In this document: piece by piece, positions 1,812 through 24,153 of the stretch
Layout: every line of letters begins with the position of its first letter
Numbering within the stretch: the stretch's first letter is position 1
Source of the DNA: a virus
Virus record (IMG/VR): IMGVR_UViG_3300009159_000308
Coordinates: 1 to 24,277 of that record
DNA: 24,277 bases
Strand: one strand, 5' to 3'
Notes under the pieces: generated by a model
What the model was told of the DNA's origin: nothing
Seen by the model: only the letters and a program-made list of their open reading frames with translations
The model's database searches: none
Made by a program: the position numbers and the translations under genes

Positions 1812-4800
1812 TCACTTAAGAGATTTGCGTACTGATTCGGCTTGCTCAGCGTACATGCCAATCAGTTCCTTCAGGCGGTCAATTTCTTCCCGCTTATCAG
1901 AACCTGACAGCCCTTCGTTGGCGTTCACTTCCCGAATCTGTTTACGCACGGCAGCCATTTTCTTAGACGTCTGGTCGTACAGTTTAGCCAGGGCTATCTT
2001 GTCGCCCTTCTCTTCCATGATTTCAATTACCTTGTCCGTTTGATTGGACTCAGCATAGTGACGCATGTCGGCAAAGGCCTGGCTGATCTGACGATTGTTC
2101 TCATAGAACGCTGTGGCATAGCGCGACTGGTTAGATGGCAATGACTTAATCAATCCCAAGCTGGCGCGGTCCAACCACTTGGCATCAGGATATTCACCAT
2201 CACGGAATGGCATAACGGCATACTGACTGGTCACGGCAGCAGTACTACCTAACCAACCAAAGTAGGCCTTGATTGCGTAGTCCACCTGGACGGGCGACAG
2301 CTCACCCTTTTCACCCAGAATAGTAGTCATGCCGCCCAAAGCTATGGCCAGAGGGCTAGTAGTGTCAGCTGCGCGCTCCTGCTTAGACAGACGCTCCATG
2401 CCAGCGCTTTCAATTGGGGCGCCGGTGAAGCTGTCTTTATTGGCGTACAGGTCCAGCACTGGCTTGAACATCTGTGGCACAGGATTCAAAGCAAACGTGT
2501 CACCCAGCATGCGCTTAATACTGTCTGCAAACTGTTTGCCCTCGGCGTCTTCGTCAATGATCTGCTCTAGGACGCGCTCGGCCATTGTTCCAAATGCGCC
2601 GATTTCAAACGGCTTAGGTACGCGGAAGGCAAAGTCCATACCGGGCAGCTTGAACCACCAAAAGTTATCGCGGTCCCACTCGTCGCGTTTCTTGTAGTCT
2701 TCGTCGTCTTTGAAGATCATGTACAAAGCCATGGACGCACCGGCTACGGCCAGCGTGGTGTAGCCAAACGCTTCAGCTTTCTGTTTATCCGTCTGCTCAA
2801 TTGGTTTTCCGGTCACGGTGTTATACAGAACGCGAACTGTAGGCGTTACACCATCACGGCCCAGCTTGTACAAACCCTGAACGCGGGCATTCATAAACGG
2901 CACCACCTGGGTCACCAAGCGGAACGCTGGCCACGAACCCTGCATGGAGAAGTCCAGCAAATCCCTGGCAGCAAACGACGCCTGTAAATGGGTTAGCTTA
3001 CGCTCGCGCATCTGGTTATACAAAGCCATGCGGTTGGCGGCTTCAGATTTGTTGCCCCATTCCTGATACTTTTCCCAGGCTACTTTCAAACCAGCTTTAA
3101 TCTTTTCTTCCGTGTCCAAGATATGCTCGCCTTTTACACCCTGCGCCAGCAGCCGTTTGATCATCTTAGATTGGTCGCCTTCGTATGCGGAACCAAAGTT
3201 AAATATGGCACCACCGGCCAAAGCGGATATGTGTGCAGGATTGTTTTTGTCTGTAGCAGCCCAACCTTCAATCACGTTAGCAAATGGATTGCGCTTCAGG
3301 TCGCTAACAGCTAATGCCTGGACTGAATCGCGAACCAAGTTGTTTACCTTGAAAGCGGGAGCAATGGTCACACCGTATTGCAATAAATTCTTGAAGTCGC
3401 GAGCAACGTCCAGGAACTTTGACTTGGGGCCCAGGTAACCAATAGATGTAATGGAATCCAGCAGCATCGGATCCAGCACCTCAAAGTAGGCGGGCTGACC
3501 ATTTATCATGGTCTTGACTGTACCTTTGCCGGCTTCCATATATTCTGGGCGCAATGACCCATCGCCAACCAGCTTGCCTGATTTAGTGGATACCACCTGA
3601 CCGTCTTCCCAGGCCAAGCCAACCTTTAGGTTTGGAATAGCAGCGCCCACTTCCATAGCCGCATCGAGCGTGGCGTTAGAGGCCTGGTTCTTCATCGACG
3701 CAGACAGAATATGACTCCAGTTGCGCAATGTGTTTTCCATCAGGTCGCCAAATGGTTTGTCGCTCTGACCCTTCAGCTCAGCACTAAACTTCTGGCTGGT
3801 CAAACCTGAAGCCGTGGCCGCATCTTGCAGGTCGCCACTCTCCATCTGCTTATAGAACGGAATGTAGAACAGATCCTGGGAGAAGCGCTCATAAGCTGCC
3901 TTGTCCATCAGGCCGGCGTTGTACGCAACATCCAGCACAGATTTGTTTAGGGCGTTCATGTCTTGTTGAACTTCTTGATACACCTCTAGGCGGGGCCTGC
4001 CGTTGATGCTGCCCTGCACCAGCTGGTCGCGGTCAGCAAGCAGCGGGGCCAGGTTGGGCGAGCGCTTGTCAATAGGCAGGCGGGACTCACGACCAAGGGC
4101 AATCCACATCATGTAGCGGTCTGTCTCAGCACCGACGGGCTTCATGGCTTCAAACAAACCTTTGGTCTTGCCCTTGATATCCAGGGCGCCACCGTTGTTG
4201 AACACATGGCCATGCATTAACAGACCTTCTAGCGCGCCGTCCACAGTCTTGGACAGACGGGCCATCATGTAGGCTTCTTCGCTATAGTCTTTGATGGTAC
4301 GGTACTGGTCAGCAATACCCTGGGCAGCACGGCGCCAGAAGCCATCCCTTAAACCTGCAATGCGGTCAATGATGGTCTTGGTCTGTGGGTTAAATACCGC
4401 GCCCAGTTTTTCCACGTAACCTGCATCCATGTCGGACAGGGCTTCGCGGTTAATGGGCTCGCGCTTCTGTAGCTTCTGCTGGGCTGCAGCCTTGACGGTG
4501 GACGCTACCTTGGCCGCTGTTTGACCAGCGCTTTTAAGCATGAACATTTCCATCTGCGCATCTTCTGAGATGATGGGCGGAACTATCATGTCCTGGGATT
4601 TCTGTGCCGCTTCGGCAGCTGTATCCAGATACTTCTTGAACGTTTCGTTTGGCAGGTAGCCGGAATTCTTAACCTTGGCATAAAACGCACGGAGCGTATC
4701 AGCCAGGCGTTTAAAGAACTGCTCCACCACACCTACGGGTTTATCAGACGTCACCGCCCAACGGGACACTTGGTCGGCGTACCACTCCTTGAAGCTTGAC

Positions 4801-7800
4801 CAGTACGGATCCATTTTGGCAGCCGACATGCCTTGTTCAACCTTGGTGGTCTGCGCAGTTGTCTTTGCGCGCAAAGCGTCCACTAATTCGCGAGCAGTCT
4901 TGCCTGCGGTAGATGCAAGCCACTTGTCGTATTCCGCTTTAATAGATGCCTGGGTTTCGGCCGATGCTTTATTGAACACCTCGTACATGTGCATGTGACC
5001 CATCTCGTGGGCTAGTACTTCCAGCATTTTGGTAACGCTGGTTGATGGCTGCATAGCAATGTAGTAATCACCGTTAGGCATCTGACGCACAGAGCCGGCT
5101 TCGCGGTAGTCCAGCGCAGCAGAACCAACGGCGCGCCACTGGCCCGTCATGTTGTGCGCATCTACGCGGGCGTCGGGCGTCGTGGTGATATAGATGTTGT
5201 TTGGCAAACCAAGCAACTCTTTCCAGCCCTTGGCAACGCTAGCAATCTTTGGCGGCAAGTTCTTGGAAAACGCCAATCCATCTTTGTTGAACTTGATGAA
5301 TGGGTTTTCTGCTTCTGCTCTAGCGTCTTCAGCTTCCAGATCCGCCTTGATTTGGCGCAGCTCTTTAACTTCAGAAGACAGCAAAAGGTATTCACCTTGC
5401 TTGGTGTCAATGTCATAGTTGTTGCGCACTTCACCTTTGATTGCCACGTAAACAGGTAGACCTGTTCGAGAATTCCAGCCGCGAATCAAAGCCAGCTTAC
5501 CGCGCTGCCAAACCACCTGACCATTCACGCCGTCGGCGCCCCGGTCAACTACTTCCATCTGCTCTGGCGTAGCATCACGCAACATGTATAGGAACTCACC
5601 GCGGTCAGCGTACTGGACATTCTTGGCCAGCACGAAGCGGCCTACCTGCAACACCTCATCAGCAGATACCACGGGCTCGCGGGTTGTGCGGTCATAAAAG
5701 TAAGCATGACGGGTTGGGTCCAAGCTAACCTGCGTCCAAGCCGGGTCGTTGAGCAAAGCTTTGACACGCCTAAACAATACATCAGGCGGCGTATTTACCC
5801 AGTCGCCTTCAATGGTTTGCTGTGGCGTCTTCTCGCTCTTGCGGCCTTCAACGTTCTGAGCAACGGTAAACGAACGCTCTGGATCGCGCGGCGCAAACAC
5901 TACGTTTTTAATGTGACCAGTGCTGCGATACGCAACGTTATTACCTGTGGTTTTATTGTTAGGACTGGTGCCTTCATGGACCGATACCACGCTGCCATTG
6001 ACGCCATTAGCACGGCCCCACTCCAACGCGGGAATGTCCATGCGCAAACCGACGCGGGTGCCGTCTGCAATAGGTGCATTAATTAATTCAGGCTTTTTCT
6101 TTTGCTTGATCTTGGTGGTCAAGATGTCGGCCATTAGGGCGCTGTCAATTGGCGCTTCCAGGTTGCTACCCAACACAGGGCCAATAGGCGTGTAGTAGTC
6201 AACGTACTCGTCGTACTGTTCTTTGGTAATCCTTCCGGCAGCCAGCTCACGGGCAGCCAGCACCACCTGCTCATTGCGGCCCTTCTTGAGCTTTAGTTCT
6301 GGGGGTGCGGTTAACTTGGGCGGTGCCTTGGGTTTTGCTGGTTCGGCAAAAATATCTCCCTGACCCTGGGCCGCAGCAACATCAGCATCCCGGTCGCTAC
6401 CTGTCAGCGTAAAGTCAGCAGCAGCTTCGTCAGCTTTAGCTTTCTCTTCCGCGGCGCGCTCGGCAGCTTTCCTGTCCTTTTCCGCTTTGATCGCAGCATC
6501 TTGCTTGGCCACAATCTCTTCAACGGAAGGTTGGGTTAGCGTGAGTTCAGCTCCCGCATCGCTCGGTTCGCCAGTATCCTGGACGCTATCTTCACGGCCT
6601 CGGGCGATGGCTCCTTCGAGGGCTGACTTGAAGGCTTTGTAGTAGGCTTGGACTGATTGGGTTTCTGTTTCATAAAAGACCTCTTCTCTCATTGATTCTG
6701 TATCGATGCCCAGCTCATCGGCCTGGGCCAGCAGCGCGCGCACTTCAGCCTGGACGTCAGGGTCGGCAGCTTCGTAGCCAGTGCCGTCAAAGTCAGACAT
6801 CTCATAACCCAGCTCTTCATCGACGGGGGAATATAGGGATGCTTCTTCTTCTGCTTTTAGGTAATCCGCAAACTGTTTTTCAGTTTCGCGCTTAGCCATT
6901 TCTTCTACGTCTTGTGGACGGTACCGGGGCGTTTTAACGCTGTCCGTAAGCATGTTGCGGGCATCGTTCATGGTGGCATTCTCACCCAAGTAGCCGGCTT
7001 CCTGAAGCTTTTCGGTAGCTCGCTCCATGGTTAACCCTTTGCCTTCGCCAGCAAATAGGAATCGGTTACCAACACGGACGTTCTTGTCCATGTTCATGTC
7101 AGACATTTCAGTTTTCGCTAAGCCGCCTTCATTGGTGATGTACTCATGCGCAGACATGGGCACACCTTTGGCAGAGGTTGCGGCCATGCCTAAACGTTTA
7201 GCTTTAGCTTCGTCAGCAGCTATTTGCTTGGGCGTCTTGGGCGCCAGGATAAAGCCCTTCCCGTTTTTATTGGGCAACACGCGCATCTCGGGGTAGTTCT
7301 TGCGCGCCATATCCGCTGACTTGCGGGATGTAAATGGTACGCCGCCTTCAGTGATGGGCTGCGGTGCTACCTGCAACTTACCTTTTTCATTTAGCTCGCG
7401 TTTGGCAGATGCGTCGTGGCCAATGTTGTCAGGGTGGTTAAAGTAATCTACCTTGGGTTCTTTTGGCTTGACCACCTTAGCGGGCGGGATCAGGCCTAAC
7501 TCATCTACTTCGGCTTGCGTAAGCGGTGGGTATTCTTCCCGTACCTCGGGCGCGGCAGTAACCGGTGGCTTTTCTGGTGGCTTTTCCAACGTCAAGGGTG
7601 GCGTAGGCGTGACCGTGGGAGCTGCCTCTTGCTTAGGCTGGGGCACCAGGTTACCCTTCTTGTCCAGCTTTAACTCATATCCCAATTCACCCAGGGCTTC
7701 ACGCTGACGGGCGTTATTCATAATCGGGTCGCGGCTGTATTCGGTAACCATGATCCCGCGAACACGCGCAGCTACATCGCTGGCTTCGGTAGTCTTTTTA

Positions 7801-9377
7801 TCCTGCTCAGCTTTAGCCGCAGCTGCAGCTTGGTCTGCTTGACGTTGACGGATAGACGCCATCAAATCTTCGTTAGCCGTGGTGCCAGCTAGAGATTGAC
7901 GCACCTCATCAGCCCTGCGACCTTCGGCAATCTTTGCCTCTTGAGCTGCACGTTCGGCTGCAATGTCCCTGCCGGCTGGCGGAGTGGGAATAACAATGTC
8001 GTTACCCTGTTTATCCCTGGACATCTGATATCCCAGGGCGGCCAACTGTTCATCACGGCGGATGGCGTTCATCGCCGGGTCACCGCTGTATAGCGTTTCA
8101 GCAACAGCTTTAGCTTCGGCATCACGCTTAGCTTTAGCTTCTTTCTCAGCCTGAATGCGCGCCTCTTCGTCGGCATCAGCCTTCTCTTGCGCACGGACGC
8201 GGGCAGCTTGCATCAAATCTTCATTACGTGGGGCAGCTTGTTGCTCCAACAAACCAGCAGCGCGCTCTTGTGTAGCACGTTGGGCGTCCAGCTCATCTTG
8301 TCTGGCTTTAGCGGCAGCAGCTTCACGCTCACGCACAGCACCCATGACATCAGCACCCATACCCTGACGGCCAGCAGCTTGCTCTTGGAACATCTCGGCG
8401 GGTGTTTTTCCGGTTAGGGAAACCGGTGGCTCGTATGCAGGCGGCTCTTCTTTGGGTGTCACTGTAGGTTTACGTAACGCGCCAGCAGCAGCACCACCAA
8501 CACCACCAATTGCAGCAGCGCCAAAGAATGCCTCTTTGTATTCGCGCATAGCGTCTTCACCTTTGAGGGGTAGGCCAGCTTGCCAGCGTTCACCCATCTG
8601 CTCTAGCACCTCGGTAGGAGCTTCAGCTACCACGCCGACTGTAGCGCCTGTAGCAGCGCGAACACCGGCTCGTTTTGCCAGCTCAGCAGCAACTTGCTCA
8701 CCCAGAATCTTTTCTGGAATCTTTCCAAAACCTAACGTCAGGCGGTCAGCAAAGTAACCCAGTGGCGCGGTCACGGCGGCAGTAGCGGCGGCTTTACCTG
8801 GCTCCAGGGTTTCTCCGGTCCGACCCTCTTCAGCCTGACGGCGCATGAAGTTACCAAACTGCTGTAGTCCATACGTGCCAATACCAGCAACGGGCCCAAC
8901 AATTGGAGCTAAAGGACCTGACACGGCCGCGGCGCCAGCACCAACCGCCAAAGGCACGGCCATAGACGGGGCGCTTTGTAATGCCTGCTCAGTAATGTAG
9001 GACGGCAGCTTCTTGGCCGCAGCCATCAGGCCCTGGTCTTGGTATGCCTTTTCCAGATCAGCAAACGATACACCCTGGGGCTTGCCTGCTTCTGCTTGTG
9101 CTTGGGCACGAATGTCTTCTGCTTGTTTGCCGGCAGATTCTTTCATACCCAGGGCAGCTTTAATACCCAGACCAATACCGGCGGCGCTTTCGGGGACGGC
9201 TTCAAAGCCACGGACAGCTGCAGCTTTGGCACCACCTAAAAAGGTAGGCTCTGCTGGCTCCGCTTGTGCTTGGCCCTGCAAACTCTTGATGTATGTTGCA
9301 AGTTGCGTTGCTGCTTGTACGTCACCTGCCGCATGCGCGTTTTGTAGCGCACGGTAAAGAGTCTGCATGTCTGCCAT
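1812..9377 (-). CDS. Giant polyvalent internal-virion protein with zincin protease and LPD38-like C-terminus
   Basis: The product has 2521 residues. Residues about 1-35 are a short helical Ala/Asp motif. Residues about 50-310 are Ala/Gly-rich hydrophobic helices likely to act on membranes. About 340-580 is a charged helical region with internal repeats. Near 742 is an EYITNEGGL motif of the kind seen in polyvalent phage proteins. Near 1218 is DPTRHAYFYDR, another recurrent module of such proteins. HEMGH at 1457-1461 with KEWYAD (Glu1531) is a zinc metallopeptidase signature. The C-terminal third includes VPFMNARVQGLYKLGR (about 2159), a hydrophobic segment near 2206 and VPKPFEIGAFGT (about 2253), matching my memory of the LPD38 domain of ejected virion proteins. 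The start is supported by AAGGTTGG upstream. I infer that it is ejected with the DNA and acts at the cell envelope or on host proteins. Confidence 0.85.
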   Translation of the reverse strand: MADMQTLYRALQNAHAAGDVQAATQLATYIKSLQGQAQAEPAEPTFLGGAKAAAVRGFEAVPESAAGIGLGIKAALGMKESAGKQAEDIRAQAQAEAGKPQGVSFADLEKAYQDQGLMAAAKKLPSYITEQALQSAPSMAVPLAVGAGAAAVSGPLAPIVGPVAGIGTYGLQQFGNFMRRQAEEGRTGETLEPGKAAATAAVTAPLGYFADRLTLGFGKIPEKILGEQVAAELAKRAGVRAATGATVGVVAEAPTEVLEQMGERWQAGLPLKGEDAMREYKEAFFGAAAIGGVGGAAAGALRKPTVTPKEEPPAYEPPVSLTGKTPAEMFQEQAAGRQGMGADVMGAVREREAAAAKARQDELDAQRATQERAAGLLEQQAAPRNEDLMQAARVRAQEKADADEEARIQAEKEAKAKRDAEAKAVAETLYSGDPAMNAIRRDEQLAALGYQMSRDKQGNDIVIPTPPAGRDIAAERAAQEAKIAEGRRADEVRQSLAGTTANEDLMASIRQRQADQAAAAAKAEQDKKTTEASDVAARVRGIMVTEYSRDPIMNNARQREALGELGYELKLDKKGNLVPQPKQEAAPTVTPTPPLTLEKPPEKPPVTAAPEVREEYPPLTQAEVDELGLIPPAKVVKPKEPKVDYFNHPDNIGHDASAKRELNEKGKLQVAPQPITEGGVPFTSRKSADMARKNYPEMRVLPNKNGKGFILAPKTPKQIAADEAKAKRLGMAATSAKGVPMSAHEYITNEGGLAKTEMSDMNMDKNVRVGNRFLFAGEGKGLTMERATEKLQEAGYLGENATMNDARNMLTDSVKTPRYRPQDVEEMAKRETEKQFADYLKAEEEASLYSPVDEELGYEMSDFDGTGYEAADPDVQAEVRALLAQADELGIDTESMREEVFYETETQSVQAYYKAFKSALEGAIARGREDSVQDTGEPSDAGAELTLTQPSVEEIVAKQDAAIKAEKDRKAAERAAEEKAKADEAAADFTLTGSDRDADVAAAQGQGDIFAEPAKPKAPPKLTAPPELKLKKGRNEQVVLAARELAAGRITKEQYDEYVDYYTPIGPVLGSNLEAPIDSALMADILTTKIKQKKKPELINAPIADGTRVGLRMDIPALEWGRANGVNGSVVSVHEGTSPNNKTTGNNVAYRSTGHIKNVVFAPRDPERSFTVAQNVEGRKSEKTPQQTIEGDWVNTPPDVLFRRVKALLNDPAWTQVSLDPTRHAYFYDRTTREPVVSADEVLQVGRFVLAKNVQYADRGEFLYMLRDATPEQMEVVDRGADGVNGQVVWQRGKLALIRGWNSRTGLPVYVAIKGEVRNNYDIDTKQGEYLLLSSEVKELRQIKADLEAEDARAEAENPFIKFNKDGLAFSKNLPPKIASVAKGWKELLGLPNNIYITTTPDARVDAHNMTGQWRAVGSAALDYREAGSVRQMPNGDYYIAMQPSTSVTKMLEVLAHEMGHMHMYEVFNKASAETQASIKAEYDKWLASTAGKTARELVDALRAKTTAQTTKVEQGMSAAKMDPYWSSFKEWYADQVSRWAVTSDKPVGVVEQFFKRLADTLRAFYAKVKNSGYLPNETFKKYLDTAAEAAQKSQDMIVPPIISEDAQMEMFMLKSAGQTAAKVASTVKAAAQQKLQKREPINREALSDMDAGYVEKLGAVFNPQTKTIIDRIAGLRDGFWRRAAQGIADQYRTIKDYSEEAYMMARLSKTVDGALEGLLMHGHVFNNGGALDIKGKTKGLFEAMKPVGAETDRYMMWIALGRESRLPIDKRSPNLAPLLADRDQLVQGSINGRPRLEVYQEVQQDMNALNKSVLDVAYNAGLMDKAAYERFSQDLFYIPFYKQMESGDLQDAATASGLTSQKFSAELKGQSDKPFGDLMENTLRNWSHILSASMKNQASNATLDAAMEVGAAIPNLKVGLAWEDGQVVSTKSGKLVGDGSLRPEYMEAGKGTVKTMINGQPAYFEVLDPMLLDSITSIGYLGPKSKFLDVARDFKNLLQYGVTIAPAFKVNNLVRDSVQALAVSDLKRNPFANVIEGWAATDKNNPAHISALAGGAIFNFGSAYEGDQSKMIKRLLAQGVKGEHILDTEEKIKAGLKVAWEKYQEWGNKSEAANRMALYNQMRERKLTHLQASFAARDLLDFSMQGSWPAFRLVTQVVPFMNARVQGLYKLGRDGVTPTVRVLYNTVTGKPIEQTDKQKAEAFGYTTLAVAGASMALYMIFKDDEDYKKRDEWDRDNFWWFKLPGMDFAFRVPKPFEIGAFGTMAERVLEQIIDEDAEGKQFADSIKRMLGDTFALNPVPQMFKPVLDLYANKDSFTGAPIESAGMERLSKQERAADTTSPLAIALGGMTTILGEKGELSPVQVDYAIKAYFGWLGSTAAVTSQYAVMPFRDGEYPDAKWLDRASLGLIKSLPSNQSRYATAFYENNRQISQAFADMRHYAESNQTDKVIEIMEEKGDKIALAKLYDQTSKKMAAVRKQIREVNANEGLSGSDKREEIDRLKELIGMYAEQAESVRKSLK
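7648..8360 (-). repeat. Diverged internal repeats in the 2521-aa protein
   Basis: Two copies about 117 residues apart share NEDLM (Asn385 and Asn502) followed by an Arg/Gln/Ala-rich helix. Downstream, also about 117 residues apart, come S-x-DP-x-MN (near 431 and 548) and a Leu-Gly-Tyr...DK-x-GN ending (LGYQMSRDKQGN and LGYELKLDKKGN). A third, partial copy of the helical motif (ADVMGAVREREA) lies near residue 341. DNA-level identity is low, so the duplication is old. Confidence 0.7.
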
Positions 9378-9380
9378 AGC

Positions 9381-9388
9381 CCAACCTT
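9381..9388 (-). promoter_or_regulatory. Ribosome binding site AAGGTTGG for the 2521-aa gene
   Basis: AAGGTTGG on the minus strand lies three bases upstream of the ATG at 9377 and overlaps the TAA stop of the 589-aa gene. It supports this ATG over the in-frame ATG three codons later. The same octamer precedes the 1624-aa gene. Confidence 0.6.
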
Positions 9389-11156
9389 ATTTTGCGTATT
9401 GACTTACTAAGCTTGCGATATTGTCTGGCAGGTCAGGCATGATGCCCGCGTTGCGTTCAATCTCTTGCATGATAGCTTTAGCGGCTGCTTTCTTGGCAGG
9501 ATCTTTACTGAAATAGTACTGTTGTGCGGCGTTTTTGTATGGCTCGCTCTTCTCAACCAGGGCTTGACGCTGCAGCGCTATCTTCTCTTGTGCTGTTTGC
9601 CCGCGGGTTCCGGTCTTGATGCGCTCAATGTCTTGCAACATTTGTTCTGCAGCTTTCGGGTCTTTGGCTTTCAACGCACCGTACTGGGACAGCAAACGCT
9701 CAGTTTCACCTGGGCGGTTAGCAGCCGCACTTTGAATACGTTGCACCTCTAATGCATTCAAGTTACGCTCTCTGGCAATCTGCATTTGCACTGCGTTGCT
9801 AGAAGCCTGGTTAGCCAGCTGAACATTACCTTGCATCTGTGAACCCAAGACGCTGGCGCCCGTGGTAGCAGATGTATCGCGCATCCTACCCAGTACATCA
9901 GCCACTTTATTGGCGGCGGCAATACCTTCGGTGCGGCGCGTAGTATCAATTAGATTGCGCTGCTCCATCTCTTGCTGCTGCATCTTCAGATCTTCAGCGC
10001 GTTTCTGGGTTTGCATAGCCGTGTAAGCCGGGCCTAATCCAGACAAGCCTTTAGACTGACCAGCCTGACCAAATACGCGGATCAAATCATCTAAACCAGA
10101 TGGCTTAGATTGGTTGTATAAATCACGAGCCGCTTGGATTCTGGCCTCTTGATCCTCACCACCTCGACCCGTGACGCCCATTGCTGCACGGCGGGCTTGA
10201 TCTTCTGCAATCAAGTCAGCCTGATTAGGCGCCTTTAAAGCATTAGTAACAGCGGCTTGTGCGGCGGGGTCATTCAAACCAGGAATGTTGGGCATGGCCG
10301 CTTGAGGTGCAGCTTGAGTAGCAACCGCGGGTTGAGTGCTAACAGCGCCAGGCATCACATTAGGCTTGTTGGCCATTGCAGCCGCGGGCAATCCGCGCGG
10401 TGGCACGGCCGCTTGAGGTCCGGCTGCGGCAGTTGCTCTAGCTTCAGAAACAGAGGCTGGTACAGAGCTAGCTGGCGCTGCACTTTGAGCAACAGTATCT
10501 TTAGAAAACCCATAACCAGGCGCACTGACCAAAGTTTTAAAAGCTTCAACAGGTAAGCTGGCTATCAAAGACAATGCCTTCTTAATGCCTTCACTATCTT
10601 TTTTAGCTTCCGGACTGCGGGCCTCTTCTTCTGCTAAACGCGCGGCTTGGCGACGGGCCTCCCAATCAGCACCTTGTTCTTGTAGGGTGTATTGGCGTAA
10701 TTTCTTTTTCTTGGCATCTACTTCGCTCTCGCCATCTTCACCATTAAACGCAACAATACCGCCGCCGTCATAGTTAAAGCTAACAGGCATTTGAGCCAAA
10801 CCACCGCTGGCCATCATCATTTCTGCGTCTGGCTGCATCTCTGGCCGTGGTGTATTTTCGGGCACTGGCCCACCCATAGGACGCTGAGCCATTTGCTGAC
10901 TCTGCATCATTTGTTGTTGAGCTTGTTGTAGCCCCATCAACCCAGCCTTCTGCTCAATCTGTTCTTTAACACTAGGCTGCTGACCCTGAACGCCGCCCTG
11001 CATGGCTCGCATTTTCTGCGCACGTTGCATCTGCGCCTGTATTTCACCCGTTGCCAACCAAGGTGGAATTAAATCAGGGGCAAATCCATCAGCAAACTTT
11101 TGTAATTCTGCCGGGCCCATGCCCTTTGCAAGCTCTTGTGCTTTAACGAGATTCAT
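9387..11156 (-). CDS. Probable internal virion (ejection) protein, 589 aa
   Basis: No enzymatic domain is recognised. Residues about 30-100 are very rich in Gln and Met (QQAQQQMMQSQQMAQRPMGG). MMMASGGLAQMP follows near residue 113, with a nearby GGGIVAFNGE; this MASGGLA...GGIVAF arrangement recurs in uncharacterised proteins of uncultured phages. The middle (about 215-300) is an Ala/Pro-rich low-complexity linker. The C-terminal 270 residues are charged and helical (ERLLSQYGALKAKDPKAAEQ and similar), suited to an elongated helical bundle. It sits between the 662-aa and 2521-aa virion-type genes with 9-base gaps on each side. Its AAGGTG ribosome site is just upstream of ATG 11156. By gene order and character it may correspond to a T7 gp15-type core protein, but no sequence similarity to gp15 is claimed. 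Confidence 0.72.
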   Translation of the reverse strand: MNLVKAQELAKGMGPAELQKFADGFAPDLIPPWLATGEIQAQMQRAQKMRAMQGGVQGQQPSVKEQIEQKAGLMGLQQAQQQMMQSQQMAQRPMGGPVPENTPRPEMQPDAEMMMASGGLAQMPVSFNYDGGGIVAFNGEDGESEVDAKKKKLRQYTLQEQGADWEARRQAARLAEEEARSPEAKKDSEGIKKALSLIASLPVEAFKTLVSAPGYGFSKDTVAQSAAPASSVPASVSEARATAAAGPQAAVPPRGLPAAAMANKPNVMPGAVSTQPAVATQAAPQAAMPNIPGLNDPAAQAAVTNALKAPNQADLIAEDQARRAAMGVTGRGGEDQEARIQAARDLYNQSKPSGLDDLIRVFGQAGQSKGLSGLGPAYTAMQTQKRAEDLKMQQQEMEQRNLIDTTRRTEGIAAANKVADVLGRMRDTSATTGASVLGSQMQGNVQLANQASSNAVQMQIARERNLNALEVQRIQSAAANRPGETERLLSQYGALKAKDPKAAEQMLQDIERIKTGTRGQTAQEKIALQRQALVEKSEPYKNAAQQYYFSKDPAKKAAAKAIMQEIERNAGIMPDLPDNIASLVSQYAK

Positions 11157-11165
11157 AATTCACCT

Positions 11166-13154
11166 TCATTTAACGCCAAGGTTGGCCAATGTTTTATACA
11201 AAGAAGCTAAGCCTGCAATATCGGTTTGCAGCTTGGAAATAGTATCTTGATTAACCGATGTAGTCGAGGCGCCAGTTGGTAAACCTTCCACCAATTTACG
11301 CTGGAATTCCACCATGTTAAATGGATAGGCTTGCTGCTGCTCAAACTGAGCCTTGTCAGCTGTAATACCTTCTTGCTCAATGCCGCGCTGAGTAGCACCG
11401 GCAGACATCAGATCTTGTAAAGACTTCAGACCGTAGTCTGCGCTGTACTGACGGGATGCTTCCGTTGCACGTTGGGTATCTAAGCCGCGGTTTTGCTCAG
11501 CATTGAACTGACCCATAGCCGTGTCATAGGCTTTGTTATATCCAGCGCCAGTAATGTTAGCCAGATTAGCACCCAATGAACGTTGAGTTTCCGAATCCAT
11601 AATGGCCTGACGCGAACCACCAAACCCGCCCGCTCCAGTCATTTTGGCGGCGTTTTGCTGCTGGGTAATCTGGGACTGGCGACGGGCCTCATCAATCTGG
11701 GGTTGTAGGGCGGCCGTCAGATATGGGTTCATATACTGATTAGCCTGAGCCGTACCAAACGTACCGGACGTAAAGGTGTTAGGTTGAAACCCGCTTGTAG
11801 CCACATCGCTCAATCCCGCAAAGCCTTGTTGTTGTAGGTCAGAAGCTCCAGCTGTAAGCGGGCCACCATAGGTTTGCTGCGGGGCATTGGCTAAAGCAGC
11901 ACCCTGACCCAAGAAATTGGTAATGTAATCACCAGCCCAGGGGGAAAGAGTAGAGGTTTTTGATGTATCCAAGGGTACGCCGCCAGCCCCAGTAGGAGCT
12001 GTAGTTGCGGTATTAGACACAACGCTACCCGTGTTGCCGTCAAAACGTTTAACACTTCCACCGTTAGCATAAGCAGCAGCCAAGCCACCAGGCATAAACT
12101 TGTCAGGGTTAATCTTCTTGCCCTGCTTTTCGTTACCTGTCCGTGCTTTACGGATACGGGCCATCATTTGGTACAGCTTGTCTGCGCCGGCTTCTGAATT
12201 GCCGTTACCCAAATGGGATACAACATCAGCAGGAATGACAAACTCTCCGTGGCTTAACGCTGCAGGCTGCTCACCATCAATGTTGGCCGGGATCTTGTCT
12301 GCCATACCATCGGTGCCGCCCTGTAGATATCTAGCGGAAGCAATACCTCCGGACGCCATGCCAACTTTATAGTTGGGGTTCATAAGTTGCTCTTGTGTAG
12401 GAACGGCGGCCAGGCCAGCAGCTGGTGTAGTGCCTGTTGTACCTGTAGTACCGGTGGTAGCTGTAGTGGCCGGAGGATTCCAGTTCATCTTCATCTTGCC
12501 CACATAGGGGTTGGCGGCAGGCTCAGAGGTTGGGTCATAACGACCGCTTAAAAATGCATTAGTTGCAATGCCTTGTGCTTGCGCATTAGAAATATCTTGA
12601 GCTGCTGACATGCTGGCTGCGTCGCCTTGTTTTACAAACAGAGGGTCTGTAAAGTACTGACGACCGGACGCCCCGGGTCTGCGGGCAATGTCTGCGCTGT
12701 AGTCAATCTGTTGACGAATGGCGTCCATCTTAGGGACGGGTACGTTATAGCCGCCGCTTTCACCGGCTTGACCTTTAAGCATGCTGTACAAACCAGTACC
12801 AGCCGTAGCAATGGCCGCCCAGTCATAACTACCGTCAGCTTTCTTAAATCCATTTAAAACTTTGCCAATAAGTGAAGGGTCGGCTCGGCTAGAAATTAAT
12901 TTTTGGACGGCAGCTTGGGCTTCTGGAGTCATTGCCTCCTTCATCCAACCCGTATAGTCAACGTTATCTTTACCTAAAACGGCAGCTAAAGCATCCGGAG
13001 TTAATAGACCACCAGCCAAATCGGCGTCACCTGTGCCGGCATCTAGGTATTCCTGATACGTGTAGTTTTCACCGTCGTCATAGCTCCGTTCACTGTATAT
13101 GGGGTTGCCATAATCGTCGTCCCCGATATACACGTTATAGGTTTGAATCGTCAT
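11166..13154 (-). CDS. Probable internal virion protein with GEFVIPADVV and NPYL...GGFGGSRQA modules, 662 aa
   Basis: The N-terminus is acidic and Tyr-rich (YNVYIGDDDYGNPIYSERSY). A Thr/Gly tract (TTGTTGTTGTT) lies near residue 235. MASGGIA follows near 265, leading into a conserved block, IPANIDGEQPAALSHGEFVI then PADVVSHLGNGNSEAGADKL, and a basic helix. FMPGGLAAAYANGG follows near 351. The C-terminal 220 residues hold YMNPYLTAALQPQIDEARRQ, then GAGGFGGSRQAIMDSE, and long Gln/Ala-rich helices. Both blocks are familiar from uncharacterised virion proteins of podovirus-like phages. I infer a structural or ejection-core role from this and from the neighbours. No catalytic residues are evident. 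A GGAC Shine-Dalgarno lies just before ATG 13154, and the upstream gene ends 9 bases away. Confidence 0.75.
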   Translation of the reverse strand: MTIQTYNVYIGDDDYGNPIYSERSYDDGENYTYQEYLDAGTGDADLAGGLLTPDALAAVLGKDNVDYTGWMKEAMTPEAQAAVQKLISSRADPSLIGKVLNGFKKADGSYDWAAIATAGTGLYSMLKGQAGESGGYNVPVPKMDAIRQQIDYSADIARRPGASGRQYFTDPLFVKQGDAASMSAAQDISNAQAQGIATNAFLSGRYDPTSEPAANPYVGKMKMNWNPPATTATTGTTGTTGTTPAAGLAAVPTQEQLMNPNYKVGMASGGIASARYLQGGTDGMADKIPANIDGEQPAALSHGEFVIPADVVSHLGNGNSEAGADKLYQMMARIRKARTGNEKQGKKINPDKFMPGGLAAAYANGGSVKRFDGNTGSVVSNTATTAPTGAGGVPLDTSKTSTLSPWAGDYITNFLGQGAALANAPQQTYGGPLTAGASDLQQQGFAGLSDVATSGFQPNTFTSGTFGTAQANQYMNPYLTAALQPQIDEARRQSQITQQQNAAKMTGAGGFGGSRQAIMDSETQRSLGANLANITGAGYNKAYDTAMGQFNAEQNRGLDTQRATEASRQYSADYGLKSLQDLMSAGATQRGIEQEGITADKAQFEQQQAYPFNMVEFQRKLVEGLPTGASTTSVNQDTISKLQTDIAGLASLYKTLANLGVK

Positions 13155-13163
13155 CTTGAGTCC

Positions 13164-16100
13164 TTAGCGTAAGAGTTTCAGCAGATCGTCTACCGTCATC
13201 TGCTCCGCCAGCAGGTCATCAAGGTGCCCGCCGGTAGCCATTTTAGTCTTATCCGTTGATTTGTTGTCAGCTTTTTTTGCGGGTTCATCTTTCAATAATT
13301 CCTGCAAAGTTGCCAACAAATTAAATTCATCCATACCGCCCGCGTAGATCGGGTCAGTTTTTTCGCCAGACGCACCAAGCGCGCTAGTTGGAATAATGGT
13401 GTCCTTTGTAATTTTCTTGCACACCCCATTAACACGTACATATCCCGGTTGGCACACAGGTACGCATACGCCGTTAACTTTTTCGTATCCAGGTTGGCAG
13501 TTAGTAGGCGTCACCACGATAGGTACGCACTTACCATCTGCATTTTTAGTTTGACCGGCAGGGCAAGAGGTATCTGCTTTTTCGCAAACACCCGTTGCTA
13601 AATTGCGGATGTAACCTTCTTTACAAACAGGCTCACACACACCGTTAACTTTCTCGTACCCGTCTTTGCATTCTTCATCATCGTCAGGGACGCACAGACC
13701 AGTTGCTTCATCACGATGGAATCCGTCTGCGCAAGGTTTTTCGTCATCAGGAACGCAAACGCCAGCTGCATTGCGGTGGTAGCCGTCTTTGCATGGCTCT
13801 GCTTCATCTGGCACACAGACGCCAGAAGCGTCGCGGTGGTAACCAGCTTTGCAAGGTTCCTCTTCGTCAAGTACGCAAACACCAGAATCGTCTTTATGGA
13901 ATCCTGGTTTGCAAGGCTCATCCGCTGGGACGCACTGTCCGGTTTCCAAGTCACGAACATAACCTTCTGGGCAGTCGTCGGGAACGCATGTGCCATTTTC
14001 TAAATGGTATCCATCGCTACATTTTTCATCATCAGGAACGCACAAGCCTGTGCCGTCATTATGGAATCCTGGCGCACACTCCGTTGTAATGGGCATGCAA
14101 GCATCTAAATCCTCATCATATCTAGTACCAGGCGGGCACGGGTTACGAGGCGCAACAATGATGGTTTCATCAATACAAGCCGTACCCTCATCATTTAACA
14201 CCTTACCCGGTGGACAGATAATTTCATCATCATCTGCGACGCAAAGACCGGTCCCATCATCATGGAAACCAGGCCCACAGTCGGTCGTGCCGCCAGTACC
14301 TGTTCCGCCCGTGCCTGTACCGGTTCCGCCAGTGCCCGTTCCCGTTCCTGTGCCCGTCCCAGTTCCCGTACCTGTGCCCGTTCCTGTACCAGTGCCGGTA
14401 CCAGTGCCTGTTCCGGTTCCGCCAAGAGTGGTGGCATTGATTAAATCTAAAATATCTTGGTTGCTTAGCCCGCTATCTGCAAGTTGCGTAGGGTTTGTAA
14501 TGCCAATCGTGGCCAAGAAAGCAGCAAAATCATTGGCTGATCTAGTGGAATCTAATTTGTCTAGGGTGCCAAGTGAATTATTAAAGAGGGCTGCATCGGC
14601 CAGAATATTGGCATTGCCAGATAAATCGGTAAGTTCCGTGCTGGGCTTGAACCATGCGTTGGCGGTAATGTCGTAGTAGGACCCGGGCGGTTTGTCATCT
14701 GACTCCGCCATAGAAAGCAACGTGTAGCCCAGTGGCGTTTTGACAGTAGATGCATTGGAGCTTTCCGCATACGTGGGTACACCCCCTATATCAGTTTTAA
14801 ATACGCCAGTACCCGTTGAGGCAAGCTGAACGCCAGTAGGAAGCGTTGTATCGGTTCCCGCTGTGGTAGTAGTTGTACCCGTAGTTGAGCCTGTAGTTGA
14901 GCCGGCATTAAGAATGCGAGTTAAACCGGTGACAGCATCAAATAATTGTCTATCGTTGCCCGAATTTGCGGCCGCAAGCACGGTTGCTGCAGCGCCTGCT
15001 AACTTTAAATCAGAGCTACCCGTCAAACTACCAATCGACGTTACCACACCACCTATATCATTATTAAGCGCGGCGTTTGTAAATTTAACCACGTTTAATG
15101 CATCTTGAGCCGTATATCCAGCCACATTAAAAGTGTTGCCTGGCAGGGCGCCAACTGTATTGGACAGCAAACCCATTACGTTACCAGAGTCGATGGCTCT
15201 TGCAGCATTTAGAGCATTGGCGGCAGTCAGGCCCGTCGTCCCTAAAGGTATGGTGCCTAAGTAGCCAGTTGCGGCAGCACTAATAACCGGGCCCAGATCG
15301 TCCCAAATAGTTTCCCAATCACCTTTATTCCATTTTTCACGAGCAACCAATTTGCCGGTGGTGTCGTAAAAATTAACAAAGTCACCATCTTTTTTACTAT
15401 ACCCGCCCAATGATGCGGCACCAGTAATTGGCGTTGCGTCCTGACCTTGACCTTGGTACCCAATAATTGCACCGGGGTTTTCCCACAAACTCAGGCCATT
15501 GTTATATGTAATTGGGTTGTATAGAACTTGATCACCCTGCTCGGTTGTAATGGTGGTGGGCGTATAAACGCCATTTTGCAAATACAACGCTTGCAGTTCA
15601 GCGGCCGTAGGCTTATTGGATATAGTGCTTGTATTGGCAGAAGTGTTTGCTGTGTTGTTTGCAACGTTAGTCGACTGATTGACAACGTTCAACACCTGAT
15701 CATTGGTAATAGTGGGTTGGTTAAATTTAACCCCTAAACCAGACAGACCTGCAAGATCAGCATCCGTAAAACCCCAAAAGTTCTTTACATCTGCAGCGCT
15801 AATACCGCTGCTTAATAGCTGGTTAACGGTACTAATATCGCCAGCGGCGTAAGCGGTTTCTAATGCTTGAGCCTGAGATTGCGTTAACCCACCTCCCGCC
15901 AAACCACCGGCGGCATATCCTCTTGGCCGTATTGATGTTAAGTTCAACGGTTGATTGACTCTACGATTGGGATATACAAAGTTCTGTACCGCATCTCCAA
16001 GTTTAGCAGTCCAAGGAACACTTCCTTTGGGGTAATCAGACGATGTGATTGTTCCGGACGGTAGATCTCTTGGGTCTAAACGAGTACTACGCTCAATAGT

Positions 16101-18038
16101 ATTTGCATTCCACATGGCCGCAGCATGCGGATCACCTAATACTTTTTCTTTAAAAACTGGATCTGTGGCAAAATCAATGCCTTTATTAAACTGAAAACCC
16201 TGCAAGTCAGCCATGCGTTCTTTTAACTCGGGTGTATTGTTAGCATTGTCGTAACCACCCCAGTATCCGTATTGTTTCTGCAAGTATGGAATAACACCTG
16301 TGATATCTTTAGACATACCTTTTAAAAAATGACTAGACGCTTCATTTAACGTCCCTAGCGGTTGGTTAACGTGAACCAATTCGTGACTTAATAAATTAGC
16401 CGCCTCCGAAGGTGAGTACTTATACGGGCCTGAATCAGTCAACATGACAGTTCCCTTTGTACCCGGATACTCGCCTACTGGAACATACGCCGCCGCTGCT
16501 GAGTCGTAATTCGTAGTGTTGGGTTGGCCACTGGCCATGATTTGAACGCCGGGCTTGTATAAACCCCAATTTGGATTCATAAATCCACCAGTTTCTACGG
16601 CATCAATAAATCTGTTAATGTAGTTTCCGGGACGATTAATTGGGTCAAAAGTAGGCAAGTTTCTATAACGACCTTCAACACTACCGGGCGCTCCAATATT
16701 AGAAAATTTACCAACTTGATCGCTTGAAGCTTGTTTAAATGTTCCAGCCATCGGGGAATATGGTCCCTTTCCCGTTTCCGTAGATTTATTGTTTACGCCT
16801 AACGGGGAAGCTGAGATGTCATTTGTGCCTAGAGGTGATGTATATGCGGCTAACTGTTCTGCTGTTGGGCCACCTTGTCCACCACGACCACCACCTACAG
16901 AATCGTAAGTTGGTTTTGATGCTAATTCAGTGGTAAACGTTTGACCCTTCCAGGTAAAGTCTGGCTCGCCCGATAACCGAGCCGCGGCAAAAGCAGAGTT
17001 AAACGAACGCTTAGAGTAATCAGTAGGTGTACGTTGCGTGGCACCTTGAGTGTCTGTTTGAGCAACAAACGGCGCGTCGTCAATGATTTGACTGCTTTTA
17101 TCACCCAAGATATCCAACAAAGATTGCGTGTCTGTAGGCGCAGTTATAGATGAGCTACCAGATTTGCCTGCCAAGATGCTGGTTAAATCATCACTTGTTT
17201 CTGGGTATGTATCAATGGTGGGCGCAGTTGACCCAGATGATCCAAGAATACCGGCCAACGTATTAGCGGCCCCTTGTCCACCGCCGGTGACTGCTGAACC
17301 GACAACATTACCCAGAGTGGAGTTGCCAGTTTGATCCCCAACTAAAGTATCTACCGCAGACCCTAGAATGGTTTTACCCAGGTTGCTGGTATTGCCGGTT
17401 AGCGCACTGTTAACCACCGACGTACCAATGTTGGTAATCAGCTTGGCAGCTGTAGGATCAGAAACTAGGCTTTGTAGTTCACTGGCCACCATGGGTGACA
17501 CGGCTTGTGATAGCTGTGATGTAACCAAACCAGTTAGGATATTTTTAGCATCCCCACCTTGGGCCACTTGCATGCCGGCATTAACCAAAGCTGTTCCCGT
17601 GGCTGTAGAAACACCCAATAAAGATGCCAGCTCTGCCCCAGCAAATGGCACGGCCATTGCAAAAACTGGGCTTAAATCGCTAAATATTTGGCTGCCTAAA
17701 CTGCCGTTATCAATAATGCCCCTGGACTGCATGTCAGGGCTAAAGGCTTCATATTTGCGTTTGCTACCTTCAATATTCTTGCTAAAGCCGCTAACGGTAA
17801 TGGGGGTATACGTAGAGCCAGCTTCGCCTTGCTGTTCACCACCTTCAAAATACACGGCCATGCCCGCGTTTTGTAAACCATTTCTTAAATAATCAAGAAC
17901 TTGCTCGGTGTTGTACCCCATTGCAGACGCTATGTCATCCATGCTCACATTGAACTTGCCTGCAGTTTGTGCAATGGCTACCGGGTCGTATTGCACCGCT
18001 TCAATGTAATCTTTAATTTCTTGTGCAGTAAAAGCCAT
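13164..18038 (-). CDS. Modular virion protein with zincin protease, Gly-Thr stalk and 15 Cys-repeats, 1624 aa
   Basis: Layout by residue: 1-55, a helical module (NVSMDDIASAMGYNTEQVLDYL); about 110-265, Ala/Gly-rich hydrophobic helices; 552-556, HELVH, followed by KERMAD (Glu607), a zincin signature with a likely third zinc ligand; about 707, AAGGLAGGGL; about 712-765, a second, diverged copy of the N-terminal module; about 905-1050, a second Ala/Gly-rich region; 1206-1251, a Gly-Thr dipeptide tract; 1254-1540, fifteen Cys-x-x-Gly repeats; and at the C-terminus MATGGHLDDLL then MTVDDLLKLLR. The protease may cut virion proteins or the host envelope. The Cys repeats would be disulfide-bonded only outside the cytoplasm. 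Its ATG overlaps the upstream stop (TAATG), with AAGGTTGG inside the upstream gene. No known homologue of the whole architecture comes to mind. Confidence 0.82.
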   Translation of the reverse strand: MAFTAQEIKDYIEAVQYDPVAIAQTAGKFNVSMDDIASAMGYNTEQVLDYLRNGLQNAGMAVYFEGGEQQGEAGSTYTPITVSGFSKNIEGSKRKYEAFSPDMQSRGIIDNGSLGSQIFSDLSPVFAMAVPFAGAELASLLGVSTATGTALVNAGMQVAQGGDAKNILTGLVTSQLSQAVSPMVASELQSLVSDPTAAKLITNIGTSVVNSALTGNTSNLGKTILGSAVDTLVGDQTGNSTLGNVVGSAVTGGGQGAANTLAGILGSSGSTAPTIDTYPETSDDLTSILAGKSGSSSITAPTDTQSLLDILGDKSSQIIDDAPFVAQTDTQGATQRTPTDYSKRSFNSAFAAARLSGEPDFTWKGQTFTTELASKPTYDSVGGGRGGQGGPTAEQLAAYTSPLGTNDISASPLGVNNKSTETGKGPYSPMAGTFKQASSDQVGKFSNIGAPGSVEGRYRNLPTFDPINRPGNYINRFIDAVETGGFMNPNWGLYKPGVQIMASGQPNTTNYDSAAAAYVPVGEYPGTKGTVMLTDSGPYKYSPSEAANLLSHELVHVNQPLGTLNEASSHFLKGMSKDITGVIPYLQKQYGYWGGYDNANNTPELKERMADLQGFQFNKGIDFATDPVFKEKVLGDPHAAAMWNANTIERSTRLDPRDLPSGTITSSDYPKGSVPWTAKLGDAVQNFVYPNRRVNQPLNLTSIRPRGYAAGGLAGGGLTQSQAQALETAYAAGDISTVNQLLSSGISAADVKNFWGFTDADLAGLSGLGVKFNQPTITNDQVLNVVNQSTNVANNTANTSANTSTISNKPTAAELQALYLQNGVYTPTTITTEQGDQVLYNPITYNNGLSLWENPGAIIGYQGQGQDATPITGAASLGGYSKKDGDFVNFYDTTGKLVAREKWNKGDWETIWDDLGPVISAAATGYLGTIPLGTTGLTAANALNAARAIDSGNVMGLLSNTVGALPGNTFNVAGYTAQDALNVVKFTNAALNNDIGGVVTSIGSLTGSSDLKLAGAAATVLAAANSGNDRQLFDAVTGLTRILNAGSTTGSTTGTTTTTAGTDTTLPTGVQLASTGTGVFKTDIGGVPTYAESSNASTVKTPLGYTLLSMAESDDKPPGSYYDITANAWFKPSTELTDLSGNANILADAALFNNSLGTLDKLDSTRSANDFAAFLATIGITNPTQLADSGLSNQDILDLINATTLGGTGTGTGTGTGTGTGTGTGTGTGTGTGTGTGGTGTGTGGTGTGGTTDCGPGFHDDGTGLCVADDDEIICPPGKVLNDEGTACIDETIIVAPRNPCPPGTRYDEDLDACMPITTECAPGFHNDGTGLCVPDDEKCSDGYHLENGTCVPDDCPEGYVRDLETGQCVPADEPCKPGFHKDDSGVCVLDEEEPCKAGYHRDASGVCVPDEAEPCKDGYHRNAAGVCVPDDEKPCADGFHRDEATGLCVPDDDEECKDGYEKVNGVCEPVCKEGYIRNLATGVCEKADTSCPAGQTKNADGKCVPIVVTPTNCQPGYEKVNGVCVPVCQPGYVRVNGVCKKITKDTIIPTSALGASGEKTDPIYAGGMDEFNLLATLQELLKDEPAKKADNKSTDKTKMATGGHLDDLLAEQMTVDDLLKLLR
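13419..14279 (-). repeat. Fifteen tandem Cys-x-x-Gly repeats (15-26 aa units)
   Basis: The repeats cover residues 1254-1540 of the 1624-aa protein. The consensus is C-x-x-G-[YF]-H-x-[DN]-x-x-G-x-C-V-P-D-[DE]-[DE], and each unit carries two cysteines. The best conserved are CKPGFHKDDSGVCV, CKAGYHRDASGVCV, CKDGYHRNAAGVCV and CADGFHRDEATGLCV. The outer units are shorter and more diverged (CQPGYEKVNGVCVPV). The even cysteine count per unit suggests one intra-unit disulfide. Acidic linkers (PDDE, DEEEP) join the units, giving a rigid, possibly Ca-binding rod. Confidence 0.92.
14286..14423 (-). repeat. Gly-Thr dipeptide tract (imperfect 6-bp repeats)
   Basis: About 46 codons alternate GGN and ACN, coding residues 1206-1251, with a few extra Gly-Gly steps near the C-terminal end. 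Third positions vary freely while the dipeptide is kept, so the tract is not a fresh slippage array. It looks like a flexible stalk joining the body of the protein to its Cys-repeat rod. Confidence 0.9.
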
Positions 18039-18385
18039 TATCCAACCTTCCAGTCTGTTCCGTCAGAATATACAGGCACAGCTACTGCACCGCCCCCCGC
18101 TACCGTTGCCCCAAATGTGGGAGCAGTTGCATCTGTTACAAAAGACCTGGCGCCCACACCTGATGTCGCCGCACTAGGTAACGTAGCCACCGTGTAATTA
18201 GTTAAAGGAGGCACGACGCCAGAAGCCATTAACTGAGTGGTCAAAGCATCTACACGATTAAAGTACAGACGCAAAATATTAAGCATCTGGTCAAAATACT
18301 GGCGGTTGTAATCCTCTGGAGGTAGCGGCAAGTTAGGTGCGGCTACCTTGTTAAGCTCAAACTCAGACGTAATGATATAGCTCAT
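18038..18385 (-). CDS. Small virion-type protein (115 aa) of unknown role
   Basis: The N-terminal half is helical (NRQYFDQMLNILRLYFNRVD), with a conserved-looking LPLPPEDYN lead-in. The C-terminal half is Gly/Ala/Thr-rich beta (GARSFVTDATAPTFGATVAG) and ends in PVYSDGTDWKVG. That SDGT-x-WK-V ending is common at the C-termini of phage tail and fibre proteins, so a virion-associated role is likely. Its ATG overlaps the stop of the gp10-like gene as ATGA, and its own stop overlaps the start of the 1624-aa gene, so three structural genes are translationally linked. It could be a small adaptor or trimeric knob next to the gp10-like protein; this is inference. No enzyme motif is seen. Confidence 0.7.
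   Translation of the reverse strand: MSYIITSEFELNKVAAPNLPLPPEDYNRQYFDQMLNILRLYFNRVDALTTQLMASGVVPPLTNYTVATLPSAATSGVGARSFVTDATAPTFGATVAGGGAVAVPVYSDGTDWKVG
18042..18049 (-). promoter_or_regulatory. Ribosome binding site AAGGTTGG for the 1624-aa gene
   Basis: The site is built from the last sense codons (Lys-Val-Gly) of the 115-aa gene, and the start ATG at 18038 overlaps that gene's TAA as TAATG. The arrangement favours re-initiation by the same ribosome and fixes the start codon. Confidence 0.6.
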
Positions 18386-24066: not shown

Positions 24067-24153
24067 CACAGACGGTGGCAGACCCGTCCAATTCAAGTCT
24101 TTTACGGCTTGACTGACTTGACTTAGCGTCCACATTCCACTGTATTGAGGCAT
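22435..24153 (-). CDS. Polyglycine-rich tail adhesin with two tandem glycine-rich modules, 572 aa
   Basis: A short N-terminal segment (MPQYSGMWTLSQVSQAVKDL) is the kind used to attach fibre-tip proteins. Two modules follow (about 30-271 and 329-572). Each opens with V[EQ]YLVV plus a Gly run, continues with SYTVTVGAGG or TYTVTVGAGG, TGT-x-ITYAGGGGGG, and closes with GSG-x-VI[VI] (VIVRYPG and VIIKWS). Runs of up to eight glycines separate short loops. This is the glycine-rich domain seen in phage and bacterial surface proteins, and resembles polyglycine-II adhesin tips such as S16 gp38, where the Gly helices form a sandwich and the loops bind the receptor. The linker between modules (about 272-328) carries SSNTWTAPVGAT. 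A receptor-binding role is inferred. Confidence 0.8.
   Translation of the reverse strand: MPQYSGMWTLSQVSQAVKDLNWTGLPPSVVEYLVVAGGGGGGYVQGGGAGAGGLLAGYHGITAGSSYTVTVGAGGAASSARGTIGTNGVNSVFGNITASGGGGGGSNNYPTPSGGNSGGSGGGGSPGNTSGAFAGSSGISGQGNAGGSSFTDGSTYGIGGGGGGAGTVAINAVSGGIAGNGGAGIASAITGTVITYAGGGGGGGDNRATRTSGGTGGVGGGGAGGNGATSQGVGTAGTANTGGGGGGGAYVSADFAGGAGGSGTVIVRYPGSIQYFTGGTVTYAAGNVVHTFTSSGTLAPTTPTDFLANNVIVFFSSNTWTAPVGATQVQYLVVGGGGGGGADYGGGGGGAGGFRTATGLSVTAGTTYTVTVGAGGNGGNGGPTSGVYGTSGGDSSFSSITSTGGGGGAGTGPSVGANGLSGGSGGGGAGETGNPGTGGAGNTPSTSPSQGSSGGGMTGSAYNGGGGGGGASAAGTTTTSSGVPGNGGAGTASSITGTSITYAGGGGGGWNYNTPTPSGGAGGGGNGGTATVLPTNGTAFTGGGGGGGGYGSSPTTGAGANGGSGIVIIKWS

Follow-up and report, generated by a model that had tools for sequence, protein, structure and literature searches.

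The locus considered here raises the question of why several adjacent virion-type proteins of a phage, otherwise different from one another, should carry the same short Gly-Gly (GG) motif. It lies in a 24,277-base IMG/VR virus record, the whole of which is referred to below as the window. A minus-strand block in this window specifies, in the order of transcription, proteins of 769, 115, 1624, 662, 589 and 2521 amino acids (aa). Relatives of the 662-aa protein occur on 57 viral contigs, in which the gene order is mostly kept (individual loci among those compared are given L-numbers). The leading 769-aa protein (18382..20691, minus strand) is a virion structural protein (PHROG 3287, E 6e-59) that also matches six chains of a single PDB entry (9nwi; chain Y, E 6e-15). 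It is probably the tail nozzle, which would supply a podophage context for the block. With the nozzle-like protein and an LPD38 protein adjoining the 662-aa protein, the block is podophage-like, as known here from its genes alone, and the phage is probably podovirus-like, i.e., short-tailed. Next to the block, on the opposite strand, is a phosphoadenosine phosphosulfate reductase-like gene (896-1756; PHROG 424, E 3e-43), and positions 22435-24153 code for a Gly-rich 572-aa protein in which Gly forms long runs (PHROG 2295, E 3e-94).

An initial annotation of the window had reported the motif from four proteins, and every string it quoted is present in the protein and at the position it named. 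Three of the four, the 1624-, 662- and 589-aa proteins, do have in common a real motif that is conserved across relatives. MAxGG occurs in all three of these adjacent genes—mildly improbable in any one of them (P ~0.03 each by composition shuffle)—and in none of the 2521-, 769- and 572-aa proteins of the window. Across the families of relatives, the pattern [MYF][AS]xGG is enriched 10.9 fold in the 589 family (37 sites observed against 3.4 expected), 8.8 fold in the 662 family (101 against 11.4) and 4.8 fold among the proteins at the 1624 position (28 against 5.8). For the last of these, we preferred this stricter count to that of GG within the last 32 residues, which is a weak signal by itself (31 of 50 proteins against 14 expected by composition shuffle). 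The 769 family has a single [MYF][AS]xGG site against 5.2 expected, and the fourth protein of the initial annotation falls out of the set: the 2521 zincin/LPD38 family is depleted, with no site in 35 proteins against 7.5 expected. The EGGLAK of the 2521-aa protein (residues 750-755; 7113-7130, minus strand) is unrelated to the motif, being a clade-specific element: within the large-protein family, no members but the two nearest relatives (L002 and L003) have it, in the form SAHEYITSEGG.

Two of the GG elements lie within the 662-aa protein (11166..13154, minus strand), which split-gene comparison resolves into an N-terminal unit, ending in a GG/GEFV module, and a C-terminal unit fused to it. 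The module spans 106 residues (266-371; 12042..12359, minus strand) and is bounded by a leading element, MASGGIA (residues 266-272; 12339..12359, minus strand), and a trailing element, MPGGLAAAYANGG (residues 354-366; 12057..12095, minus strand), with MPGGLAAA at residues 354-361. All 50 unique relatives of this protein have such flanking GG pairs. In 47 relatives, G269, G270, G356 and G357 never change, and A267 and A363 are each kept at 98%. The module as a whole is near-invariant, as these 47 relatives agree throughout at 70 positions and residues 266-370 account for 53 of them; residues 371-400 are mostly unconserved. The conserved core reads GG..RYLxGxTDGMADKIPA...AALSHGEFVIPADVVSHLGNGNSxAGAxKLYxMM...INPDKFMPGGLAxxYAxGGxV and matches the pattern GG...SDxIPAxLSxGE(F/Y)V...PxFxxGG, found C-terminally in tail tape measure proteins.

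This likeness extends to direct sequence matches. The module matches gp066c of Caulobacter phage RW (E 1e-4), which we regard as an intermediate because it also matches the tape measure proteins of many phages. An ejection-type module profile from 80 contigs, aligned by hhalign to a tape-measure-type profile from 79 contigs, gave a match at 96.9% (E 1.7e-10). The latter profile matches lambda gpH at residues 731-791 (E 3.2e-5), and the trailing GG is kept in 78 of the 79 tape-measure-type modules. The A1 alignment profile, which itself contains three tape measure sequences, matches the Douge tape measure protein (PDB 8zdo, E 4.8e-9, two copies) and, weakly, that of JBD30 (PDB 8rk3, E 0.067). 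In JBD30, the module match at residues 1019-1057 overlaps residues 1022-1066, which are predicted to act as a hook retaining the protein in the baseplate (PMC11445458). We take these sequence comparisons to show homology between the 662-aa module and the C-terminal GG/GEFV module that tail tape measure proteins carry. The motif is hence not undescribed in kind, much of it being a common tape measure module, and a full-text literature search on its signature strings found nothing of relevance and no paper naming it. Homology of the C-half of the 662-aa protein to P22 gp7 or BPP-1 bbp12 was looked for and not found. AlphaFold2 gave a weak model of the 662-aa protein with an alignment (mean pLDDT 59, and below 50 for most of residues 265-319 and 353-400) and an uninformative one without (pLDDT 37). 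As both GG segments are left below 50, a folded hook is not confirmed by the model, and a Foldseek search with it found nothing significant.

Two known kinds of double-glycine site were considered for these elements and rejected. Adenovirus-type proteases have the consensus (M/I/L)xGG↓x or (M/I/L)xGx↓G (arrow marking the cut), and here the residue two before the GG is the conserved alanine (A267, A363) rather than M, I or L. Double-glycine leader peptides of the C39 type do not fit because the GG elements are internal or C-terminal and do not end a short N-terminal leader. Separately, the GG motif was seen, in several copies in some cases, in clusters of small basic head-region proteins of two genomes (L083:353-823, L083:834-1412 and L085:16782-18582), which end in RADGIAxKGKTKGxMxC-type sequences.

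The position of the trailing element becomes clear from phages in which the 662-aa protein is specified by two genes. In Caulobacter phage RW, Synechococcus phage MinM2 and pelagiphage HTVC023P, the module closes one protein and the C-half is a separate gene; the block of Planktothrix Pag-Yong1 is likewise of the split form. Separate C-half genes are also found in Microcystis phage MJing1 and many contigs, the stand-alone C-half matches in four isolates having E values from 5e-12 to 2e-24 (search space as set for that comparison). The split into two genes is seen in 25 of 80 contigs. Nearly all the first genes stop at INPDK-[FLY]-[LM]-P-[AR] or at a closely similar sequence, and the second gene in many of them starts with a short Met leader followed by ESSLSNWAGPYVTDMLGKG. 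The fused forms have MP-GGLAxxYAxGGxV at the split point and then pass into the next unit. Since the stop of the split forms coincides with the MP-GGLA of the fused ones, two units of the 662-aa protein are joined at its second GG element.

The 1624-aa ejection-type protein (13164..18038, minus strand) is likewise composite by blastp, with a 708-aa unit fused to a unit homologous to stand-alone proteins of its relatives. Residues 1-705 have no blastp match in 65 loci, and from about residue 800 onward the protein aligns with relatives from near their N-termini. Alignment to relatives places the element YAAGGLAGGGL (residues 708-718, with AAGGLAGGGL at 709-718; 15885..15917, minus strand) where the two units meet, and it is a second fusion joint, located to within some tens of residues. 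The other GG element of this protein, MATGG (residues 1600-1604, 21 residues before the stop), belongs to the C-terminal tail MATGGHLDDLLAEQMTVDDLLKLLR (residues 1600-1624; 13167..13241, minus strand). At this gene position in relatives, tails of the same kind close proteins that otherwise differ, in the forms MAxGG...LLxLLR, FSNGGxVxxxxVDxLLQILR and GFSGGGDIDELLQLLRS; additional small proteins encoded next to the 589 gene end in MFAKGGLVNLLRRR. The plan of these tails is xAxGG with LLxxLR at the end. In both the 662- and the 1624-aa proteins, the GG elements thus stand at the ends of protein units, be they natural C-termini or fusion joints.

Several observations adjoin these tails. Small genes beside the 589-type gene in four loci (L040:4506-5105, L041:11662-12231, L043:11584-12000 and L055:11566-12156) code for products ending in FAxGGLVxLLRR or similar. 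A portal protein (L091:3654-6215, from the genome of L005; PHROG 1216, E 3e-23) has the C-terminal sequence KMAHGGQVHNQKLEHAEMDRIAKLLQGNRE, built on the plan of the 1624-aa tail. At about residues 1250-1550, following a long Gly-Thr repeat, the 1624-aa protein also displays Cys-rich repeats of the CxPGFHxDGTGLCVxDDD type, the copy number of which seems to vary among the proteins at this position in relatives.

The 589-aa protein (9387..11156, minus strand) contains two GG elements, MASGGLA (residues 115-121; 10794-10814, minus strand) and YDGGGIVAF (10746-10772, minus strand). The pattern GG[IV][IV][AG] falls at residues 80-200 in all 46 unique proteins at the 589 position, against 0.05 expected by chance. 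As both this element and the C-terminal tails are devoid of the GEFV core, only the motif relates them to the module of the 662-aa protein.

The remaining large protein of the block, that of 2521 aa (1812..9377, minus strand), contains an LPD38 domain (2172-2705, minus strand; Pfam E 1.9e-35, scoring 123 bits where the cut-off is 27). Its zincin signature, HEMGH, lies at residue 1457 (4995-5009, minus strand) with FKEWYADQ downstream of it (4770-4793, minus strand). These features qualify it as a phage polyvalent protein as defined in PMC5512222. The initial annotation had counted two HExxH metallopeptidase signatures among its four proteins and made the pair part of one system with the motif. 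Both signatures do exist in the window, the second being HELVH at residue 552 of the 1624-aa protein (16371-16385, minus strand), where an eCIS_core-like zincin match stayed below the cut-off (E 0.17). However, HExxH is absent from the protein at the 1624 position in all relatives; the second zincin is unique to the window, and the idea that the pair is part of the system is unsupported. The zincin of the large protein is by comparison pervasive. All 30 unique large proteins of >1800 aa carry HEXXH or HEXXXH, as do the large proteins of 17 of 18 split contigs, the sole exception being incomplete; L009 and L039 were dropped as candidate zincin-less loci upon alignment revealing the HEXXXH variant HEVGAHLG. 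Since every full-length large protein has a zincin, in fused and split contigs alike, its co-occurrence with the motif is uninformative within the group, and the fused or split state does not track the presence of a zincin. The zincins vary (HEMGHMH, HEIGHIV, HELTHAA, HEALHAL, HEVGAHLG) while the GG motif stays constant. The motif also persists where no zincin was seen, namely in the parts read of the RW block (the last gene of which codes for an SLT transglycosylase), in the stretches read of HTVC023P and of the roseophage CRP-207, and in the part of lambda gpH examined, which runs counter to the supposed co-occurrence of motif and zincin across phages. In MinM2, L066:15886-24297 codes for a 2803-aa polyvalent protein with LPD38 and two HEXXH signatures, annotated as RelA/SpoT in the record, and with a weak ART-PolyVal match below the cut-off (E 0.0026).

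We lean towards the reading that the GG motifs are the edges of a docking or retention module, together with related C-terminal tails, of podophage ejection proteins. The motif pair of the 662-aa protein flanks a tape-measure-type C-terminal module, and by homology, this module or a tail most probably anchors its protein to the portal/nozzle channel or to the capsid interior during assembly, much as the C-terminus of a tape measure protein is held in the tail tip. The flexible GG edge would then be the place where the anchored end parts from the protein that is to be ejected.

A competing explanation, to which we give distinctly less weight, is that the GG elements are processing sites cut in assembly by a host or phage protease, with the fused proteins being polyproteins released as the units for which split phages have separate genes. 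Maturation by cutting at GG edges is tentatively plausible by analogy with two known cases. According to PMC10038345, a cut in the T5 tape measure protein pb2 was mapped by mass spectrometry after R1127, and the C-terminal fragment remains docked at the tail tip. The T5 record reads FVPR↓AEGG at this point (R1127↓AEGG); by chance, a GG beginning 1-3 residues downstream would be met at only 1.2% of the bonds in pb2. Mature P22 gp7 begins with KGGKG after the action of the host metallo-oligopeptidase OpdA (PMC8402733); the cut is E20↓KGGKGG, a placement next to a GG that 7.5% of the bonds in gp7 would share by chance. These matches, and the one in lambda gpH given next, are post hoc and the module profile does not match pb2, the kinship of which with the module is suggested by an AxGG and a GE.G.EVV.P pattern recognized by eye only; therefore, they are precedents and not proof. 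In lambda gpH, a cut before the leading ATGG (A734-G737) would give a calculated product of ~79.7 kDa, close to the size of gpH*; a literature search did not find the exact gpH cleavage site. The coexistence of split and fused forms, the trailing GG being the exact point of the joint, and the disorder predicted by AlphaFold2 at both GG segments are further compatible with processing. However, a conserved flexible joint would appear identical, the residue preceding AxGG varies (M, Y, F, L) and so gives no P1 signature, and a GG cut in the C-terminal tail would remove merely ~20 residues. The initial proposal of a processing site, docking peptide or assembly signal was a fair list, given a motif at unit boundaries and the T5 and P22 cuts at such GGs, but the role it assigned to the zincins is unsupported.

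That proposal would make the zincin of the large polyvalent protein the processing enzyme, which we consider improbable. The near-universal zincin of the large proteins agrees with it, as does the want of motif sites in these proteins, as might be expected of a protease that spares itself. Moreover, the zincins of polyvalent proteins have been proposed to process their own polypeptides (PMC5512222), and the enzyme acting on P22 gp7 is itself a metallo-oligopeptidase. Against this, the zincin sequences diverge widely around a constant motif, the motif persists in RW, HTVC023P, CRP-207 and lambda although their relevant genes showed no zincin in the genome parts read, fusion is independent of zincin presence, and the N4 vRNAP, which has such a domain, is packaged uncleaved (PMC5512222). 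GG cutting by the phage's own zincin is hence speculative and unlikely. We hold equally small hope for a broader version, in which AxGG would be the common parting site of tape measure and podophage ejection proteins, the docked anchor being cut off at the GG, here by the zincin in trans, and the fused proteins being polyproteins. Finally, we disfavour as doubtful the notion that the GG elements are mere flexible linkers, a coincidence of composition in Gly/Ala/Met-rich proteins: the proteins are indeed Gly/Ala rich and partly disordered, the single-protein P values are modest and residues 371-400 of the 662-aa protein are mostly unconserved, but the four glycines of its flanking pairs are unchanged in 47 relatives, the 5-11 fold enrichment in three families is absent from the neighbouring large protein, and the flanked module is homologous to tape measure proteins.

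On the docking reading, a single module ties the ejection proteins of a large group of uncultured freshwater phages to the tape measure proteins of long-tailed phages, and this raises the question of GG edges as general maturation sites in genome-delivery proteins. Among known systems, encapsulin cargo-loading peptides and the capsid-targeting sequences of T4 and phiKZ are short terminal peptides that direct unrelated proteins to the same shell; their likeness to the GG...LLxLLR tails is one of analogy alone. The 2521-aa protein shares LPD38, HEXXH and a downstream glutamate with the polyvalent proteins of Iyer et al. 2017 (PMC5512222) and differs from its ejection neighbours in being without the GG motif. 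P22 gp7 is, like the proteins considered here, a podophage ejection protein, and its N-terminus is matured to KGGKG by a host metallo-oligopeptidase (PMC8402733), but it loses an N-terminal propeptide, has KGGKGG instead of AxGG and displays no detectable homology to the 662-aa protein. T5 pb2 offers a mapped cut at an AxGG with the C-terminal piece docked in the tail tip (PMC10038345), but it comes from a long-tailed phage and is not matched by the module profile. The closest parallel is the tape measure module itself, as seen in lambda gpH (731-791), Nitrincola 1M3-16, JBD30 gp46 and Douge gp16. It shares with the 662 module the leading A-x-G-G, SD-x-IPA, L-S-x-G-E-[FY]-V, the segment that follows and the trailing P-x-F-A-x-G-G, usually near the protein C-terminus. 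The 662 version differs in that the protein bearing it is of the ejection type and comes from a phage that is probably short-tailed, and in having a longer TDGMADKIP segment, an INPDKFMP end and frequent fusion to the next protein.
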